Of a stretch of 23,485 nucleotides of DNA, positions 2,577 to 22,094 are shown one piece after another. A program made the translations under genes and the position numbers. Under the pieces are notes generated by a model. It was not told the origin of the DNA. It did not search any database and saw nothing but the letters and a program-made list of their open reading frames with translations. Position 1 is the stretch's first letter. Each line of letters starts with the position of its first letter. This DNA comes from a virus, in IMG/VR virus record IMGVR_UViG_3300042304_001247, positions 1-23,485 of that record; one strand, given 5' to 3'.

Positions 2577-3275
2577 ATGTCAAAGTTAAAATCATTTTCT
2601 GAATTCGCTGGATTTAAAGAAGTCGATGCTCTTGGTTACGGCAACGAAGCTAAGAAACATCGCTTAACATATTCCAAAGAAAAACCAGTTATCATTAAGA
2701 TGACCAAAGAAAATGGTGTCTATGAACAACTCTTACACTTTCAAAATCCAAGAAATTCAAGTCAAGAAACTCTTTCTGAAATAGAAGAAAATATATCTTT
2801 GCAAAAAGAATTAAGCGATTCAGAAATTGAGTTTATTAAAAGAGCTGAAACTGACATGTTACTTTTAATCAATGAAAGATTAATTGAACTAGGTGGAACT
2901 GATGAGATGCTTCTTCTACAAGCAGTAACTGCATTTACAGATCCTTTGCTTTATAAGTTAAAACATTTTTATAATAGACCAAGACCTGCTCAATTAGCAA
3001 GAGCATTAGATTTAGAATTGTATCCTGTAATTCCTACTAATGCCTCAAGTGCAGCTTATCCAAGTGGACATGCTCTTGATTCATATACATGTGGTTGGAT
3101 CATTGGTCAAAAATATCCTGAATTAGCTGATCAAATTTCAACTTTTTGTGAAGAAGTAGCTTTTACCAGAATTCAGGCTGGTGTACACTACAGATCTGAT
3201 GCTGATTTTTCTAAAATCATCTTTGATAAATTAGTAGAATCACAGACAATAACCTTGGATTATTTTTTATTGTAA
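2577..3275 (+). CDS. PAP2-superfamily phosphatase with capsid-targeting-like N-terminus
   Basis: A 232-residue protein carrying the full three-part signature of the PAP2/class A acid phosphatase superfamily. K127-x6-R134-P135 (KLKHFYNRPRP) is motif 1, PSGH at 162-165 is motif 2, and R198-x5-H204-x3-D208 is motif 3, with Thr replacing the usual Ser before Arg. These residues form the phospho-histidine active site that removes phosphate from lipids, nucleotides or small phosphoesters. There is no signal peptide or membrane helix, unlike most PAP2 enzymes, so it is likely soluble. The first residues, MSKLKSFSEFAGFKEVDA, match the tag shared with four other proteins here and may direct packaging into the prohead. 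The 3' end overlaps the convergent gene by 9 nt. Family call is firm; substrate and packaging are inference. Confidence 0.85.
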   Translation: MSKLKSFSEFAGFKEVDALGYGNEAKKHRLTYSKEKPVIIKMTKENGVYEQLLHFQNPRNSSQETLSEIEENISLQKELSDSEIEFIKRAETDMLLLINERLIELGGTDEMLLLQAVTAFTDPLLYKLKHFYNRPRPAQLARALDLELYPVIPTNASSAAYPSGHALDSYTCGWIIGQKYPELADQISTFCEEVAFTRIQAGVHYRSDADFSKIIFDKLVESQTITLDYFLL

Positions 3276-7786: not shown

Positions 7787-7859
7787 GCCTCCTTAGCTCA
7801 GCTGGTAGAGCAACTGATTTGTAATCAGTAGGTCGCTGGTTCGATCCCGGCAGGAGGCT
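7787..7859 (+). tRNA. tRNA-Thr (UGU)
   Basis: The acceptor GCCTCCT/AGGAGGC is perfect, the anticodon stem ACTGA/TCAGT carries loop TTTGTAA (UGU), and the T arm is GCTGG-TTCGATC-CCGGC. The discriminator is U7859. CCA is not encoded. Confidence 0.94.
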
Positions 7860-7897
7860 CACCTAACTTTTTTACCTTTTACATAGATATATAGTTT

Positions 7898-8587
7898 ATG
7901 GAAAAGTTAAAAAAGAAACAAGCCACTAGAAGAAAATATCATTACATTTATAAAACAATCTGTATCATTACAAATAAATTTTATATTGGAATGCACTCAA
8001 CTGACAACTTAGAAGATGGTTATATTGGTTCAGGTAAAAGACTTTGGTACTCAATAAACAAATACGGCAAAGAAAATCATACTTGTGAGATATTAGAGTT
8101 CTTAGAATCAAGAGAACTTTTAAAAGAAAAAGAAAAACAATTAGTTAATCAGGATCTTTTAAATGATTCAATGTGTATGAATCTTGCAATTGGTGGAGAA
8201 GGAGGCCATGGCTCTAAATTTTTAACTAAAGAACAATTAGCAAAAGGCGGTAAAAATTCTATGGCTATTATAAAATTACTTAGAGAAACTGATCCAGAAT
8301 ATGCTAAAATAAATAGTAAGTCTATATCAAAGTCATATTATAAGGCGATTGAAGAGGGAAGAAGAATACCAAAAGCTTGGGGTAATTGGACTGGTAGGAA
8401 ACACAAATTAGAAACTATTGAAAAATTAAAAGGTCATAGTCATCAAGTTGGTTTAAATAATTCCCAATATGGAAAATGTTGGATAACAAATGGAATTGAA
8501 AGCCAAAAGATTTACAAAGGCGATTCTATTCCAGAAGGCTGGAAATTAGGTCGTAAACAAATTTTGAAACAAAATAAAAACAATTAA
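7898..8587 (+). CDS. GIY-YIG free-standing homing endonuclease
   Basis: A 229-residue protein with an N-terminal GIY-YIG nuclease domain (YHYIYKT at 14-20, FYIGMHS at 28-34, DGYIGSGKRLWYSINKYG at about 40-57). It is followed by NUMOD-type DNA-binding modules (WTGRKHKLETIEKLKG, YGKCWITNGIESQKI, IPEGWKLGRK) in the C-terminal third. Such enzymes, like the T4 Seg family, cut a specific site in a related phage lacking the gene and spread it by repair. Its place beside tRNA-Thr and structured RNAs suggests insertion into a tRNA/ncRNA locus. It may have recombined the neighbouring RNA genes. AGATATATAG lies just upstream of the ATG. It has typical length for the family; the target is unknown. Confidence 0.88.
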   Translation: MEKLKKKQATRRKYHYIYKTICIITNKFYIGMHSTDNLEDGYIGSGKRLWYSINKYGKENHTCEILEFLESRELLKEKEKQLVNQDLLNDSMCMNLAIGGEGGHGSKFLTKEQLAKGGKNSMAIIKLLRETDPEYAKINSKSISKSYYKAIEEGRRIPKAWGNWTGRKHKLETIEKLKGHSHQVGLNNSQYGKCWITNGIESQKIYKGDSIPEGWKLGRKQILKQNKNN

Positions 8588-8597
8588 TATAACTATT

Positions 8598-8765
8598 ATG
8601 AACAAAGAACAATTTTTAGGATTTTTACGTCACACTTTAACTGTATTAGGTGGTGTATTAGTAGCAAGAGGTTATATGGATGATTCAATGTTAGCTGAAG
8701 GTGCAGGTATTATTACTGCTCTTGTAGGTTTTATTTGGTCAGCAGCTTCTAAGAAAACAGTATAA
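8598..8765 (+). CDS. holin-like small membrane protein (Pam3 gp28 type)
   Basis: A 55-residue protein, MNKEQFLGFLRHTLTVLG onward, with two hydrophobic helices at about residues 9-24 (LRHTLTVLGGVLVARG) and 34-50 (GAGIITALVGFIWSAAS). They are separated by a short acidic turn, and a Lys-rich tail (SKKTV) follows. Length and pattern match the small holins of the Pam3 gp28-like family, which sit in the inner membrane and time endolysin release. The endolysin of this window lies 6.6 kb downstream at 15224, not adjacent, so the lysis genes are dispersed. It follows the homing endonuclease by 10 nt. The identification is by overall likeness and hydropathy. Confidence 0.68.
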   Translation: MNKEQFLGFLRHTLTVLGGVLVARGYMDDSMLAEGAGIITALVGFIWSAASKKTV

Positions 8766-8846
8766 TTATATGGTGTCTCGGTACGCTCTGACGAAAGTTA
8801 ACGACGAGGTCTCGGTTGGCAGACGGCCTCTGATCCAACCCACATT
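8766..8846 (+). other. structured leader before tRNA-Gly(ACC)
   Basis: A stacked hairpin is seen: GGTTGG (8814-8819) with CCAACC (8835-8840), continuing as CAGA (8820-8823) with TCTG (8829-8832) around CGGCC. A second element upstream pairs CTCG (8777-8780) with CGAG (8805-8808) around a TGAC-GAAA-GTTA tetraloop hairpin. It ends 6 nt before the tRNA. Confidence 0.45.
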
Positions 8847-8922
8847 GCGAAAGTAGCTCAGCTGGTAGAGCTCCAGTTTACCAAACTGGAGGTCGCGGGT
8901 TCGAATCCCGTCTTTCGCTCCA
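8847..8922 (+). tRNA. tRNA-Gly with rare anticodon ACC, CCA encoded
   Basis: The acceptor GCGAAAG/CTTTCGC is perfect, the anticodon stem CCAGT/ACTGG carries loop TTACCAA, and the T arm is GCGGG-TTCGAAT-CCCGT. U73 (8919) is followed by encoded CCA. With T at position 33, the anticodon is ACC, reading GGU. G1-C72, C2-G71, C35, C36 and U73 are all glycine identity elements, supporting Gly. A34 is very unusual for a bacterial or phage tRNA-Gly. Confidence 0.85.
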
Positions 8923-17137: not shown

Positions 17138-17956
17138 ATGAAAGCAATAAAATCCTATCAACAATTTGTAAATGAGGCAAAAAGCACAGGCTTAATTTAT
17201 ACCATCTTAGATGCATTAGAACCAACTGTCTTAACTATGGTTAATGAAGTTGAAGCTTGGTTCATTAAAAAGTTTGAACGTCCTTTTTCTGATTTTGATA
17301 GAGAAATGACTCATCTTCAGGTTATAGCTGACTTAGTTAAATCAATTGAATATTATACAGAGCCAACAGATACTTTGCTTTCAATCACACCATCTACATC
17401 TCGTAAAGGTAACATTGAAATCTCTGCTCAAATTCAAAGAGGAACTGAAACATACAGTTTAAAGACAGAAGCTATTATTGCTGGTGGTTATAATATTCAA
17501 CGAGCTCATTATCGTTACCTAACAAGCACAAAATTGCCAAGAACTGGCAGATCAGAAATCAGCAAAGAATACACTGAAAAGATCAAGAAAATGACCAAAG
17601 CTGAAAAGCTAAATTTCGAGATTGAGAATTTGGAAAGAGACATTACACGAGTTAAAGAAAAACTAGCTAAAAACAGTCCAATGACTGATGCTCAAATTGA
17701 ACAAGAGCTAATCGATACTCAATATTGGGCTTATAAAGACAATCCAACATGGGACGAATTGATCAAAAGAGATGCTGCTAAAAACTATAATAACTCTGAA
17801 GAAGAATACAATGCAAGTATAGCAAAAAACAAAGCTGGTGGTATTGAATTCTGGAAAACACAAAACGTTCAATGGCCTACCACCAGATTGAAATCTTTGG
17901 AAAAAGATGTTATCAAGCTTAGAGGCAAATTAGAAGTAATAACTGCTTCAATCTAA
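17138..17956 (+). CDS. hypothetical protein with capsid-targeting-like N-terminus
   Basis: A 272-residue protein beginning MKAIKSYQQFVNEAKS, nearly the same as the T4 internal-protein tag MKTYQEFIAEA as I recall it, with a probable prohead-protease site after E13 (FVNE-A). The rest has an alpha/beta middle with a beta-rich part (TLLSITPSTSRKGNIEISAQ, QRGTETYSLKTEAIIAGG). A long coiled-coil region follows (KAEKLNFEIENLERDITRVK), and another helix closes the protein (LKSLEKDVIKLRGKLEVI). No enzyme motif is seen. It is transcribed alone, between cassette copies A and B. It is likely a packaged internal protein, but this is inference from the tag. Confidence 0.65.
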   Translation: MKAIKSYQQFVNEAKSTGLIYTILDALEPTVLTMVNEVEAWFIKKFERPFSDFDREMTHLQVIADLVKSIEYYTEPTDTLLSITPSTSRKGNIEISAQIQRGTETYSLKTEAIIAGGYNIQRAHYRYLTSTKLPRTGRSEISKEYTEKIKKMTKAEKLNFEIENLERDITRVKEKLAKNSPMTDAQIEQELIDTQYWAYKDNPTWDELIKRDAAKNYNNSEEEYNASIAKNKAGGIEFWKTQNVQWPTTRLKSLEKDVIKLRGKLEVITASI

Positions 17957-18056: not shown

Positions 18057-18800
18057 ATGCCACAGATATTTAAAGTAGGAGGATGTGTAAGGGACAAGTT
18101 TCTTGGATTAGAATCCAAAGATATAGATTTTACATTTGTATTGGATGACTTATCCGGATCAGTCCAGGAAGGTTTCGCAACAATGGAAGATCATCTTAAA
18201 CAAGAAGGTTTTGAAGTGTTCTTGAGCACTCCAGACTGTTTTACTATTAGGGCTAAGTTTCCTAAAGGGCACCAATTTAGTGGCCTAGTGGCTGACTTTG
18301 TAATGGCTCGTAAAGAAGTTGGTTACATGGAAGGAACTCGTCAGCCTATTCTAGAACTTGGAACTCTGGCCGATGATTTACTTCGTCGAGATTTTACAGT
18401 CAATGCTTTAACTGAAGACATTGATGGAAACATTATTGATCTTTTTGGTGGTCAAGAGGACCTAAAACAAGGTTTGCTTAGAACACCGTTGCCTGCAAAA
18501 ATGACTATGATGGATGATCCATTGAGAATCATGAGGGCTTTGAGGTTTAAAATCACTAAAGGATTTAGCATCCATGATGATATTTGGATGGCAATGATGC
18601 AACCTGAAATCTTAGAAAAATTAAGAACGACAGTTAGTGCTGAAAGAATTCGCGATGAGGTTTTCAAAATGATGAAGCATGACACTGTTGCAACTATCAA
18701 ATTGCTACATTTAGTCGATGCTCAATCAATCCCAGGCTTTTTAGACTTGGTCTTTGATCGAGGCATGTGGTTAAAACCAACTTTTGAAAAGAAACAATAA
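18057..18800 (+). CDS. tRNA nucleotidyltransferase (CCA-adding enzyme), short form
   Basis: A 247-residue class II nucleotidyltransferase. FKVGGCVRDKFLGLESKDID holds the GG and RRD-type head motif and the D22-x-D24 metal pair. RRDFTVNAL at 110-118 is motif B, DDPLRIMRALRF at 153-164 follows, and ERIRDEVFKMM at 196-206 is the neck motif. The enzyme builds or repairs the 3' CCA of tRNAs without a template. It is about 150 residues shorter than typical bacterial enzymes because the C-terminal body/tail is missing. An in-frame extension upstream to 17982 falls inside the terminator, so the ATG at 18057 is the start. Seven of the eleven tRNAs with an assigned anticodon here lack encoded CCA, giving it clear work. 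Confidence 0.9.
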   Translation: MPQIFKVGGCVRDKFLGLESKDIDFTFVLDDLSGSVQEGFATMEDHLKQEGFEVFLSTPDCFTIRAKFPKGHQFSGLVADFVMARKEVGYMEGTRQPILELGTLADDLLRRDFTVNALTEDIDGNIIDLFGGQEDLKQGLLRTPLPAKMTMMDDPLRIMRALRFKITKGFSIHDDIWMAMMQPEILEKLRTTVSAERIRDEVFKMMKHDTVATIKLLHLVDAQSIPGFLDLVFDRGMWLKPTFEKKQ

Positions 18801-19389: not shown

Positions 19390-20520
19390 ATGGAAAGAAA
19401 ACTAGCATCTGTACAGAGAATCGCTAGCATTAGACCAATTGAGGGTGCTGATGCTATCGAAGTGGCAAGAATCAACAACTGGGATGTTGTTGTTAAAAAG
19501 AACGAGTTTAAAGAAGGAGAACTTTGTGTTTACTTTGAAATTGATTCATTCTTACCAATCAGAGAAGAGTTTGAATTCTTACGTAAGAGCTCATTTAAAA
19601 AGATGGGTGACCAAGAAGGATTTCGCTTAAAGACTATTAGACTAAGAGGCCAAGTTTCTCAAGGTTTAGTAGTTCCTATTACTATCTTAAATGGTGATTA
19701 CATTATTGGAATCTCTCAACAACCACACGGAGATCAATTACAATTAGGACCTTATGATGATGCTTTAGTAATCGAAGAAGGTGCAGATGTAACTGAATTG
19801 TTAGGCGTAGAGAAATATGAACCACCAATTCCAGCTGAATTGTCTGGTAAAGTCAAAGGTTACTTTCCATCATTTATTCATAAAACTGATGAAGAACGAG
19901 TTCAAAACTTGGTTAAAGAATATGCACAATGGAAAGAACAAGATCTGGACTTCTATGTGACTGAGAAATTAGATGGATCTTCAGCAACTTATTACTATAA
20001 TAATGGTGTCTTTGGTGTATGTTCAAGAAACTTAGAACTAGCAGAACCTGAAGAATTTGTAGCAGGAATGGTAATGTGTGATGACGGTATCGAAAGACCA
20101 CGTCAACAAAATTCATTTTGGAAAGTAGCTCAAGAATTAGGACTCAAAGAAAAGTTAGAAGCTTATGGTCGAAATATCTCTATTCAAGGCGAATTGATTG
20201 GTGAAGGGATCCAAGGAAATCCTTACAAAATCAAGGGACAAACTGTTAGATTCTTTAATGTATTTGATATTGATACACAAGAGTACTATGGTTTACCAAT
20301 GTTCTTAGCAACTATGCAACATACTTTAAAATTGGAAACTGTACCAGTATTGGAATTTCCATGTAAGTTACCAGATACTATCGATGAATTATTGGCTTAT
20401 GCTGATGCAAAATCAGTCCTAAATCCTAATTTCGATAGAGAAGGCGTAGTTATTAGAAGTTTGGATCGTAAGATTAGTTTTAAAGCTATTTCGAATAAGT
20501 TTTTAATGAATGAAAAGTAA
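19390..20520 (+). CDS. RNA ligase, Rnl5/DraRnl-like
   Basis: A 376-residue ATP-dependent ligase. Residues 1-150 form an N-terminal OB-like domain (LASVQRIASIRPIEGADAIE, LCVYFEIDSFLP, GLVVPI) as in Deinococcus Rnl5. The nucleotidyltransferase motifs follow in order: motif I EKLDGSSAT with nucleophile K193, QGELIGEG (E268), motif III FFNVFDI, motif IV REGVVIR (E351), and motif V SFKAIS with K365. Rnl5 enzymes seal 3'-OH/5'-phosphate nicks in RNA strands. Here it may reseal tRNAs or other RNAs cut by host defence nucleases. The stop overlaps the next start (TAATG). An N-terminal OB domain separates it from T4 Rnl1 and Rnl2. Confidence 0.87.
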   Translation: MERKLASVQRIASIRPIEGADAIEVARINNWDVVVKKNEFKEGELCVYFEIDSFLPIREEFEFLRKSSFKKMGDQEGFRLKTIRLRGQVSQGLVVPITILNGDYIIGISQQPHGDQLQLGPYDDALVIEEGADVTELLGVEKYEPPIPAELSGKVKGYFPSFIHKTDEERVQNLVKEYAQWKEQDLDFYVTEKLDGSSATYYYNNGVFGVCSRNLELAEPEEFVAGMVMCDDGIERPRQQNSFWKVAQELGLKEKLEAYGRNISIQGELIGEGIQGNPYKIKGQTVRFFNVFDIDTQEYYGLPMFLATMQHTLKLETVPVLEFPCKLPDTIDELLAYADAKSVLNPNFDREGVVIRSLDRKISFKAISNKFLMNEK

Positions 20521-20865: not shown

Positions 20866-21471
20866 ATGAAACATATTAAATTATTTGAAGATTTTTTAAA
20901 TGAAGCAACTCCTTCTGAAATTATAAAAGATTTGGATAAAGTAAGACATGACTTGATTAAAAAAGTAGATGTATTAATTGCTAAAAAGAAAAAACTTTAT
21001 TCTAATATAGATATTGAATCGCCGATGAGTGCTGATGAGAAAGAATTAGAGAAGGATATACAATCTATATTTTCACAAATCCAACAAATAATTCAACAAA
21101 AAAGAAAATTAAAAGAGTCGGTAAACGAAGCTGCAATAACATCTGATAAAATCAAACAATATTATTCTGCAATCTGTAAAGCTGAAGGCGTAGATGAAAT
21201 TCCATTGAGATTCGAATCAGTTAAATTCGGTGGTGCATCAACTACATATAATCCAAAAACAAACAAAGCACTTTACATTTCTTTCGATGTTAGTAAAATG
21301 CACGATGCTGAATATGCTATTTTGCATGAATTAACACATCAAATAAAATTACAAACCGAAGGTGATCCATATCTTGGTAAAAAAGATCAATCTGCTAAAT
21401 TTAAGAAATTAGAGAATGCCATGATTGATAAATACATGTACTCTAGTTATTCCAATATACTTTGGAAATAA
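20866..21471 (+). CDS. HExxH metallopeptidase with capsid-targeting-like N-terminus
   Basis: A 201-residue protein. It starts MKHIKLFEDFLNEATPS, the clearest copy of the shared tag, with L-N-E-A matching the T4 prohead-protease cut pattern after E13. Residues 18-82 are a coiled coil rich in Lys. A second cut-like site, ESVNE-AA, follows at E88. The C-terminal domain from about 90 carries HELTH at 154-158 (AILHELTHQIKL) with catalytic E155, so it is a zinc-dependent peptidase with a small, unclassified fold. A model is that the pro-region is removed in the capsid and the mature peptidase is injected. It is coupled to the 2H phosphoesterase gene downstream. Confidence 0.75.
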   Translation: MKHIKLFEDFLNEATPSEIIKDLDKVRHDLIKKVDVLIAKKKKLYSNIDIESPMSADEKELEKDIQSIFSQIQQIIQQKRKLKESVNEAAITSDKIKQYYSAICKAEGVDEIPLRFESVKFGGASTTYNPKTNKALYISFDVSKMHDAEYAILHELTHQIKLQTEGDPYLGKKDQSAKFKKLENAMIDKYMYSSYSNILWK

Positions 21472-21491: not shown

Positions 21492-22094
21492 ATGAAAAAT
21501 ATTAGACTATTCGAACAATTTGTTAAGGATCTAGTCGAGAAAAAGGGCGACACATACAATTCAAGTTGTGCTATGTTGTACTTTGACTTTCCACAACTTG
21601 CAGAAATTCATTCCAAAATAGACGAAGAAGATCTTTACACCGAAGAAGAGGACAGAACATTTGGTTTAGAAGATGAACCGCATTGTACATTACTTTATGG
21701 TTTAGAAAACACAGTTACTCCAGATCAAATCGAACAAATAGTTAAGGGTATCAAATTTGGTAAGCTTAGACTTTACAATATGTCACTATTTGAAAATGGT
21801 AAGTATGATGTTTTAAAGTTTGATGTAGGCTATACTGATAAGAAATCTTCATTCTTGCATGATTGTAACGAAGAATTGACTAAGTTACCGTATAAGAGTG
21901 ATTTCCCAGATTATCATCCTCACATGACAGTAGCATACTTAAAACCAGGAATGGGAGACAAATATACAATGGCATTTAAAAACGAAGAGCATGAGGTTTA
22001 TCCTAATCACATCATTTTTAGTGAGCCAGATAATACCAAGACTCAAATTGCAATTGATACGCTTTTGCCACCAGACAAAGCCAGAATGGATTAA
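21492..22094 (+). CDS. 2H phosphoesterase with capsid-targeting-like N-terminus
   Basis: A 200-residue protein with the two H-x-T motifs of the 2H phosphoesterase/RNA ligase-like superfamily: H64-C-T66 (DEPHCTLLYGL) and H144-M-T146 (YHPHMTVAYLKPG), 80 residues apart. These enzymes hydrolyse or form 2',3'-cyclic or 2'-5' linked phosphates. Known phage members such as Acb1 destroy CBASS cyclic-nucleotide signals. The start MKNIRLFEQFVKDLVEK fits the shared tag, although no NE-A follows. An upstream TTG in frame at 21462 would overlap the peptidase gene and is rejected because the tag starts at the ATG. The tag suggests delivery into the host; the substrate is unknown. Confidence 0.8.
   Translation: MKNIRLFEQFVKDLVEKKGDTYNSSCAMLYFDFPQLAEIHSKIDEEDLYTEEEDRTFGLEDEPHCTLLYGLENTVTPDQIEQIVKGIKFGKLRLYNMSLFENGKYDVLKFDVGYTDKKSSFLHDCNEELTKLPYKSDFPDYHPHMTVAYLKPGMGDKYTMAFKNEEHEVYPNHIIFSEPDNTKTQIAIDTLLPPDKARMD

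Follow-up and report, generated by a model that had tools for sequence, protein, structure and literature searches.

A tagged 2H phosphoesterase of large phages: a possible head-packaged enzyme against host nucleotide signaling

The 2H gene and its neighborhood

The stretch of DNA analyzed here, which we call the window, comprises 23,485 nucleotides of IMG/VR record IMGVR_UViG_3300042304_001247 and belongs to a phage contig. Its sequence recurs in a longer relative of 75,410 bases (G001), where it occupies 12841-36325 to within one base. At 21492..22094 on the plus strand, an open ATG frame of 200 codons encodes a 2H phosphoesterase of 200 amino acids. Translation and alignment place its first catalytic motif, H64-C-T66 (PHCT), at 21681..21689 (+) and the second, H144-M-T146 (PHMT), at 21921..21929 (+), the latter inside the stretch FPDYHPHMTVAY, whose counterpart in T4 Acb1 is FDDYTPHITLSY. 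The preliminary description of this DNA had placed the protein in the 2H superfamily on the strength of H-x-T motifs at H64 and H144, and the assignment holds: both motifs are found at these residues, both histidines and both threonines are invariant in an alignment of 53 relatives, and the AlphaFold2 model fits 2H structures. F100, D106, V107, K109, Y141, P143 and Y149 are likewise invariant in the 53-row alignment.

Directly adjoining the 2H gene is a gene whose N-terminal tag, discussed below, was picked up by our tag scan (20866..21471, +; MKHIKLFEDFLNE followed by Ala). Its product carries a C-terminal HELTH metalloprotease-like motif and has distant relatives in Bacteroides phages. HExxH metalloprotease-like motifs are found in tagged small proteins directly upstream of 2H at window positions 20866-21471, at L060:9535-9936 and at L062:5541-5942, in two distant lineages. 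Profile matches identified an ATP-dependent RNA ligase about 1 kb upstream of 2H (PHA02142/phrog_968; 19390..20520, +) and a tRNA nucleotidyltransferase (PolyA_pol head domain; 18057..18800, +), both untagged. The tag scan also returned a gene at 17138..17956 (+; MKAIKSYQQFVNE followed by Ala), whose relatives in G006 and G014 carry similar tags. Elsewhere, the window holds eleven tRNA genes (690-2551 and 7787-8922) and a PAP2-family phosphatase with the tag-like start MSKLKSFSEF (2577-3275).

The dN/dS ratios of ~0.05-0.3 in six pairs of 2H relatives indicate that the gene is real and under purifying selection. A first scan gave 64 viral loci with 2H relatives and a profile scan at least 525 confirmed stretches; the family has hundreds of phage relatives. 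An origin as an ordinary bacterial LigT was ruled out because two MAG contigs were the sole carriers of close relatives among the 84,980 prokaryote genomes searched.

Fold and enzyme family

With an alignment as input, AlphaFold2 modeled the window protein at a mean pLDDT of 85. The core is confident, its ten-residue blocks between residues 21 and 190 scoring pLDDT 83-96, and the helix of the N-terminal tag is separate and of low confidence. The confident Foldseek matches in the PDB are 2H-fold enzymes, namely poxvirus cGAMP phosphodiesterase (E 5.6e-6), Acb1 (1.5e-4), Usb1, plant CPDase and LigT. The structural comparison proposed in the preliminary description therefore returned a 2H fold, with matches well beyond the bacterial 2'-5' RNA ligases; since TM-scores are similar across these substrate classes, the fold identifies a 2H enzyme, does not discriminate between substrates and confirms none of them.

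The Pfam entries 2_5_RNA_ligase2 and Acb1 (PF23474) each match 53 of 53 members at E<=0.1, and the window protein scores 26.4 bits with the former and 24.3 bits with the latter. Both values are under the cut-off of 27, so the protein is Acb1-like rather than a certified Acb1; a divergent relative, L058, scores 31.7 bits against Pfam Acb1 (cut-off 27). The LigT or 2'-5' RNA ligase family (RNA 2',3'-cyclic phosphodiesterase) is alike in fold and motifs, but its equivalog model, TIGR02258, matches all members weakly, and the window protein clearly fails it, at 25.5 bits against a cut-off of 65.7. The CPDase family profile matches 2 of the 53 members, again weakly. All 53 match phrog_755, to which T4 57B/Acb1 belongs (E 5e-68) and which bears the label 'RNA ligase' though it is the Acb1 family. 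The best solved chains by sequence profile are the Acb1 entries 7t26 (E 5.1e-4) and 9q2g (2.3e-3), followed by the archaeal LigT-like 1vdx (0.033); phmmer with the single window protein gave no match in the PDB, and Acb1 was found by profile only. By profile, the nearest family of the window protein is T4 57B/Acb1.

An hhalign comparison of the 2H profile with eight Acb1 sequences (96.6%, E 7e-10, 74 columns aligned) lines up the invariant F100 with the conserved Trp of T4 Acb1, and F138 with the aromatic residue six positions before the second His. In the published Acb1 structure, the base-stacking residues are W74 and F107 (PMC9117128), for which F100 and F138 are the counterparts by alignment alone. 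The C-terminal adenine-contact Glu and lid Trp of Acb1 lie outside the 74 columns, which end earlier, and no residue map to Acb1 Tyr12, Glu141 and Trp147 was obtainable from sequence; the 2H family has a conserved YSxPDGxK stretch in the region of this Glu and lid Trp. Overall, T4 Acb1 (gp57B, anti-CBASS) has the same 2H fold, HxT pair and PHROG as the window protein, together with the DYxPHxTx(A/S)Y stretch and the two aligned aromatics, but it starts without the tag pattern. In the T4 genome (NC_000866, 73591-74410), the Acb1 gene 57B directly adjoins ipI, the gene of a packaged internal protein.

An N-terminal tag shared with many other proteins

Alignment, shared-tag scans and comparison with T4 delimit a capsid-targeting-like tag at the N-terminus of the window protein, MKNIRLFEQFVKDLVE (21492..21539, +), which ends in phi-x-E (LVE followed by K). 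The protein start reads MKNIRLFEQFVKD-LVE-KKG, with Asp at canonical position 13, where most relatives and neighbors have the cleavage Glu; the E16 column is nearly invariant among relatives. In the tag matrix described below, this tag reaches 7.0 bits, whereas canonical 2H tags reach 16-21, and we regard the window copy as real but atypical and degenerate. In T4 IPIII, Asp at the matching position inhibits processing and leaves targeting (PMC9026906), so that cleavage of the window protein, if any, may fall between E16 and K17.

Most 2H relatives have a short extension before the core that ends in phi-x-E. The motif occurs shortly before the core in 45 of 46 distinct extensions, compared with 41% of equally long internal windows. 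Because the extensions are related by descent, the corresponding binomial P of 1.6e-16 exaggerates their independence. A strict tag pattern matches 37 of 90 non-redundant 2H proteins; as it misses shorter tags and other dialects, counts based on it are lower bounds, while looser patterns admit false positives. Close relatives that lack the tag also exist (start MSEKQTYDYGC...). Tenacibaculum phage PTm1, one of the nearest cultured phages as judged by its major capsid protein, was considered as a cultured tagged relative and rejected: its 2H protein is untagged and a scan of its genome found no such tag set.

The tag is found on many proteins other than 2H. Protein starts similar to the 2H tag of the same genome, with 2H counted, number 15 in G001, 25 in G006 (256 kb) and 32 in G014 (234 kb), and the corresponding numbers of internal methionines with a 2H-like tag are 0 of 286, 0 of 1038 and 0 of 855. 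In related phages the tag type is MKxIKLFEEFxNE, on mostly unrelated proteins, and in a set of 59 tagged, mostly unrelated proteins Glu13 alone is near-invariant besides Met1. No other protein with a tag resembling that of its own 2H was found in G020 and G012. An adjacent tagged gene is present at 22 of the 37 strictly tagged 2H loci versus 3 of the 53 others (90 non-redundant loci, kinship ignored). Neighbors also agree in dialect: MKFKSYKNWLNES stands beside MHKFITFKNWLSEE at L060, and in the 405-kb phage G021 the 2H protein starts MHKFITFKNWLSEE and its neighbors MKFKSYKNWLNES and MKFYAYRKWLNEKF. 2H wears the local tag in G021 and, as described below, in G013, where other tag dialects are in use. 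We found neither a virion proteome for these phages nor a paper on a capsid-targeting tag in uncultured phages.

Comparison with T4 and the prohead

The internal proteins IPII and IPIII, bearers of the T4 capsid-targeting sequence, begin MKTYQEFIAE followed by A. According to T4 genetics, targeting depends mainly on residues 4 and 7, and processing on residues 8 and 10 (PMC9026906); the tag pattern F-x-E-F-[VIL]-x-E followed by A has the same residue types at T4's spacing. We built a tag matrix of eight columns from 49 non-2H tags, with neither 2H nor T4 sequences in the training set, whose anchoring pattern was picked by eye. Run over T4, the matrix ranks IPIII first and IPII second of 1158 start candidates, with the scaffold gp22 sixth.

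T4 IPI, IPII and IPIII thus resemble the 2H protein in their short N-terminal tag, [FY]xEF[ILV]xE followed by A, and 2H-related genomes likewise have an S77 prohead protease (PF03420), which is present in 12 of 22 long records of relatives; it was not found in G001, the 75-kb relative of the window, which is itself a fragment. G006 and G014 each have a small, prohead-core-like gene with a tag (MKKLIKTFEQFIFEAE and MKIIKTFEEFTSSLQE), flanked by a portal-like gene on one side and the S77 protease on the other, at the position of T4 genes 67 and 68. In G013, the gene directly following the protease encodes an acidic, scaffold-like protein with the C-terminus FLRMQKLAGII, and the tag of the 2H protein is FKRMQELAGIIVEE (start MESQEFKRMQELAGIIVEE). 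The scaffold-like protein and another protein of G013 (56256-57491 and 138667-140091) end RMQKLAGII and RMKKLAGL, which suggests that core-binding motifs can be C-terminal as well as N-terminal. The T4 system differs in that the 2H-type tag is usually three residues longer, that far more proteins per genome are tagged, and that the putative 2H cargo is a recognizable enzyme.

The tag could instead be another N-terminal element, such as a localization, translation or phage-compartment signal, with 2H acting as an ordinary intracellular enzyme. Untagged 2H homologues in phages PTm1 and Molly would fit this reading, which the retrieval of IPII and IPIII by the matrix, the phi-x-E end, the S77 protease, the tag on the prohead-core-like gene and the agreement of the G013 scaffold-like end with the 2H tag all argue against; we give it a small chance. 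The packaging-like N-terminus noted in the preliminary description is borne out by much of the same evidence, along with the spread of the tag over many cargo genes and an operon of tagged genes, and from its sequence the 2H protein is likely to be packaged into the head.

Tagged operons, Tad3 and RNA genes

The operon in question, at locus L008, has 14 tagged genes in 7.1 kb, 2H among them. Two genes upstream of 2H (L008:8925-9686) is a tagged homologue of Tad3, a Type I Thoeris inhibitor, recognized by Pfam (8e-19) and by PDB entry 9b7d (E 2.5e-35 over residues 45-249, i.e. behind the tag). Further tagged neighbors are a GNAT acetyltransferase, a zeta-toxin-like P-loop kinase (AAA_33) and an ATP-grasp protein. 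Tagged Tad3 homologues in or near the 2H operon are also seen in L007, L018, L027 and G004. Across 27 records, Tad3 is present in five, tagged in G004 and untagged in G018, and it was not found in G001; a literature search returned no paper on Tad3.

The tagged Tad3 in the 2H operon would also suit another role against Thoeris-like systems, in which the packaged 2H enzyme and Tad3 cooperate and the substrate of 2H is a signal or by-product of the ADP-ribose type (e.g. ADP-ribose 1'',2''-cyclic phosphate or a TIR product). Plant CPDase, which acts on AppR>p, is among the better fold matches, but the weak CPDase profile matches to just two members speak against such a substrate, and we consider it improbable.

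RNA metabolism offers another partner for a packaged 2H enzyme. Injected 2H might open the 2',3'-cyclic phosphates that ribonucleases, among them the anticodon nucleases of the host, leave behind, after which phage RNA ligase and tRNA nucleotidyltransferase would restore the tRNAs early in infection; a role in RNA-end healing has previously been proposed for jumbo-phage 2H enzymes (PMC7824862). In about 27 relatives, an RNA ligase lies 1-5 kb upstream of 2H on the same strand, and the window adds the tRNA nucleotidyltransferase and its 11 tRNAs. Two tagged proteins fit as well, the P-loop kinase of the L008 operon and one that matches a polynucleotide-kinase PHROG. On the other side, the 2H sequence is nearer to Acb1 than to LigT-type structures, the ligase and nucleotidyltransferase are untagged and so would not be co-delivered with 2H, and no RNA ligase was found in the 2H-bearing G013 (174 kb), G020 (150 kb) and G021 (405 kb), records that may be incomplete. 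The preliminary description had named RNA-end processing in company with the ligase as its alternative, and it stays live, with the linkage to ligase and nucleotidyltransferase for it and the Acb1 affinity against; we judge it rather unlikely.

Fusions of 2H point both ways. L058:6725-10858 is a single frame of ~1378 amino acids with tRNA nucleotidyltransferase, ART-PolyVal (an ADP-ribosyltransferase domain), an apparent second HxT-pair domain and 2H; the first of these favors RNA-end healing, and LNE motifs between the domains hint at a polyprotein that would be packaged and then cleaved by the prohead protease. At L072:14995-16308, 2H is fused to an RNase_T/DnaQ-like exonuclease, and the fusion has the tag-like start MKLKKYKQFIKES.

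A proposed role in disarming host signaling

We propose that the phage loads a 2H-fold phosphodiesterase into its head. The N-terminal tag would work like the T4 capsid-targeting sequence by binding the core of the prohead. In most relatives it would be removed after the phi-x-E site by a prohead protease of the T4 type (S77). The mature 2H protein would be left among the DNA in the head and enter the host with the genome, where it would most likely cut immune nucleotide second messengers (a cyclic oligonucleotide of the CBASS type or something related) from DNA entry on. Further tagged cargo, for instance Tad3 against Thoeris, would act alongside it.

The sequences themselves show the 2H motifs and predicted fold, the shared tag and its presence on a core-like gene, the protease in related genomes and the tagged Tad3 neighbor in relatives; physical packaging, cleavage, injection and substrate are inferred from them. 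For the injected anti-signaling enzyme suggested in the preliminary description, packaging and injection are well supported on these grounds, and the anti-signaling part is plausible but circumstantial, with Acb1 nearest by profile and a tagged Tad3 in the operon of relatives. Given packaging, we put an anti-signaling substrate at about even, ahead of RNA-end repair because of the Acb1 affinity and the company of Tad3. The whole explanation, a head-packaged and injected 2H enzyme that cuts host immune nucleotide signals, we place somewhat short of an even chance.

A precedent for the kind of strategy exists in phiKZ, whose Tad1 is described as an injected sponge against CBASS and Thoeris (PMC13282480). 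The concept is the one proposed here for 2H, a jumbo phage that brings in an anti-signaling protein together with its DNA, but Tad1 sequesters signals and is no enzyme. The kind is therefore already known, and a tag-marked enzyme cargo would be a new variation on it. More tentatively, a T4-related lineage of large phages may fill its heads with an exchangeable set of ~15 to 30 tagged proteins. With a Thoeris inhibitor among them, and a 2H nuclease to degrade nucleotide alarm signals, these phages would disarm signal-based immunity at DNA entry.

If this is true, the N-terminal tag would reveal from sequence alone which proteins large uncultured phages inject, most of them without known function. 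The old question of what phage internal proteins do would then become a list of candidate anti-defense proteins, with a catalytic anti-signaling enzyme and a Thoeris inhibitor as its first entries.
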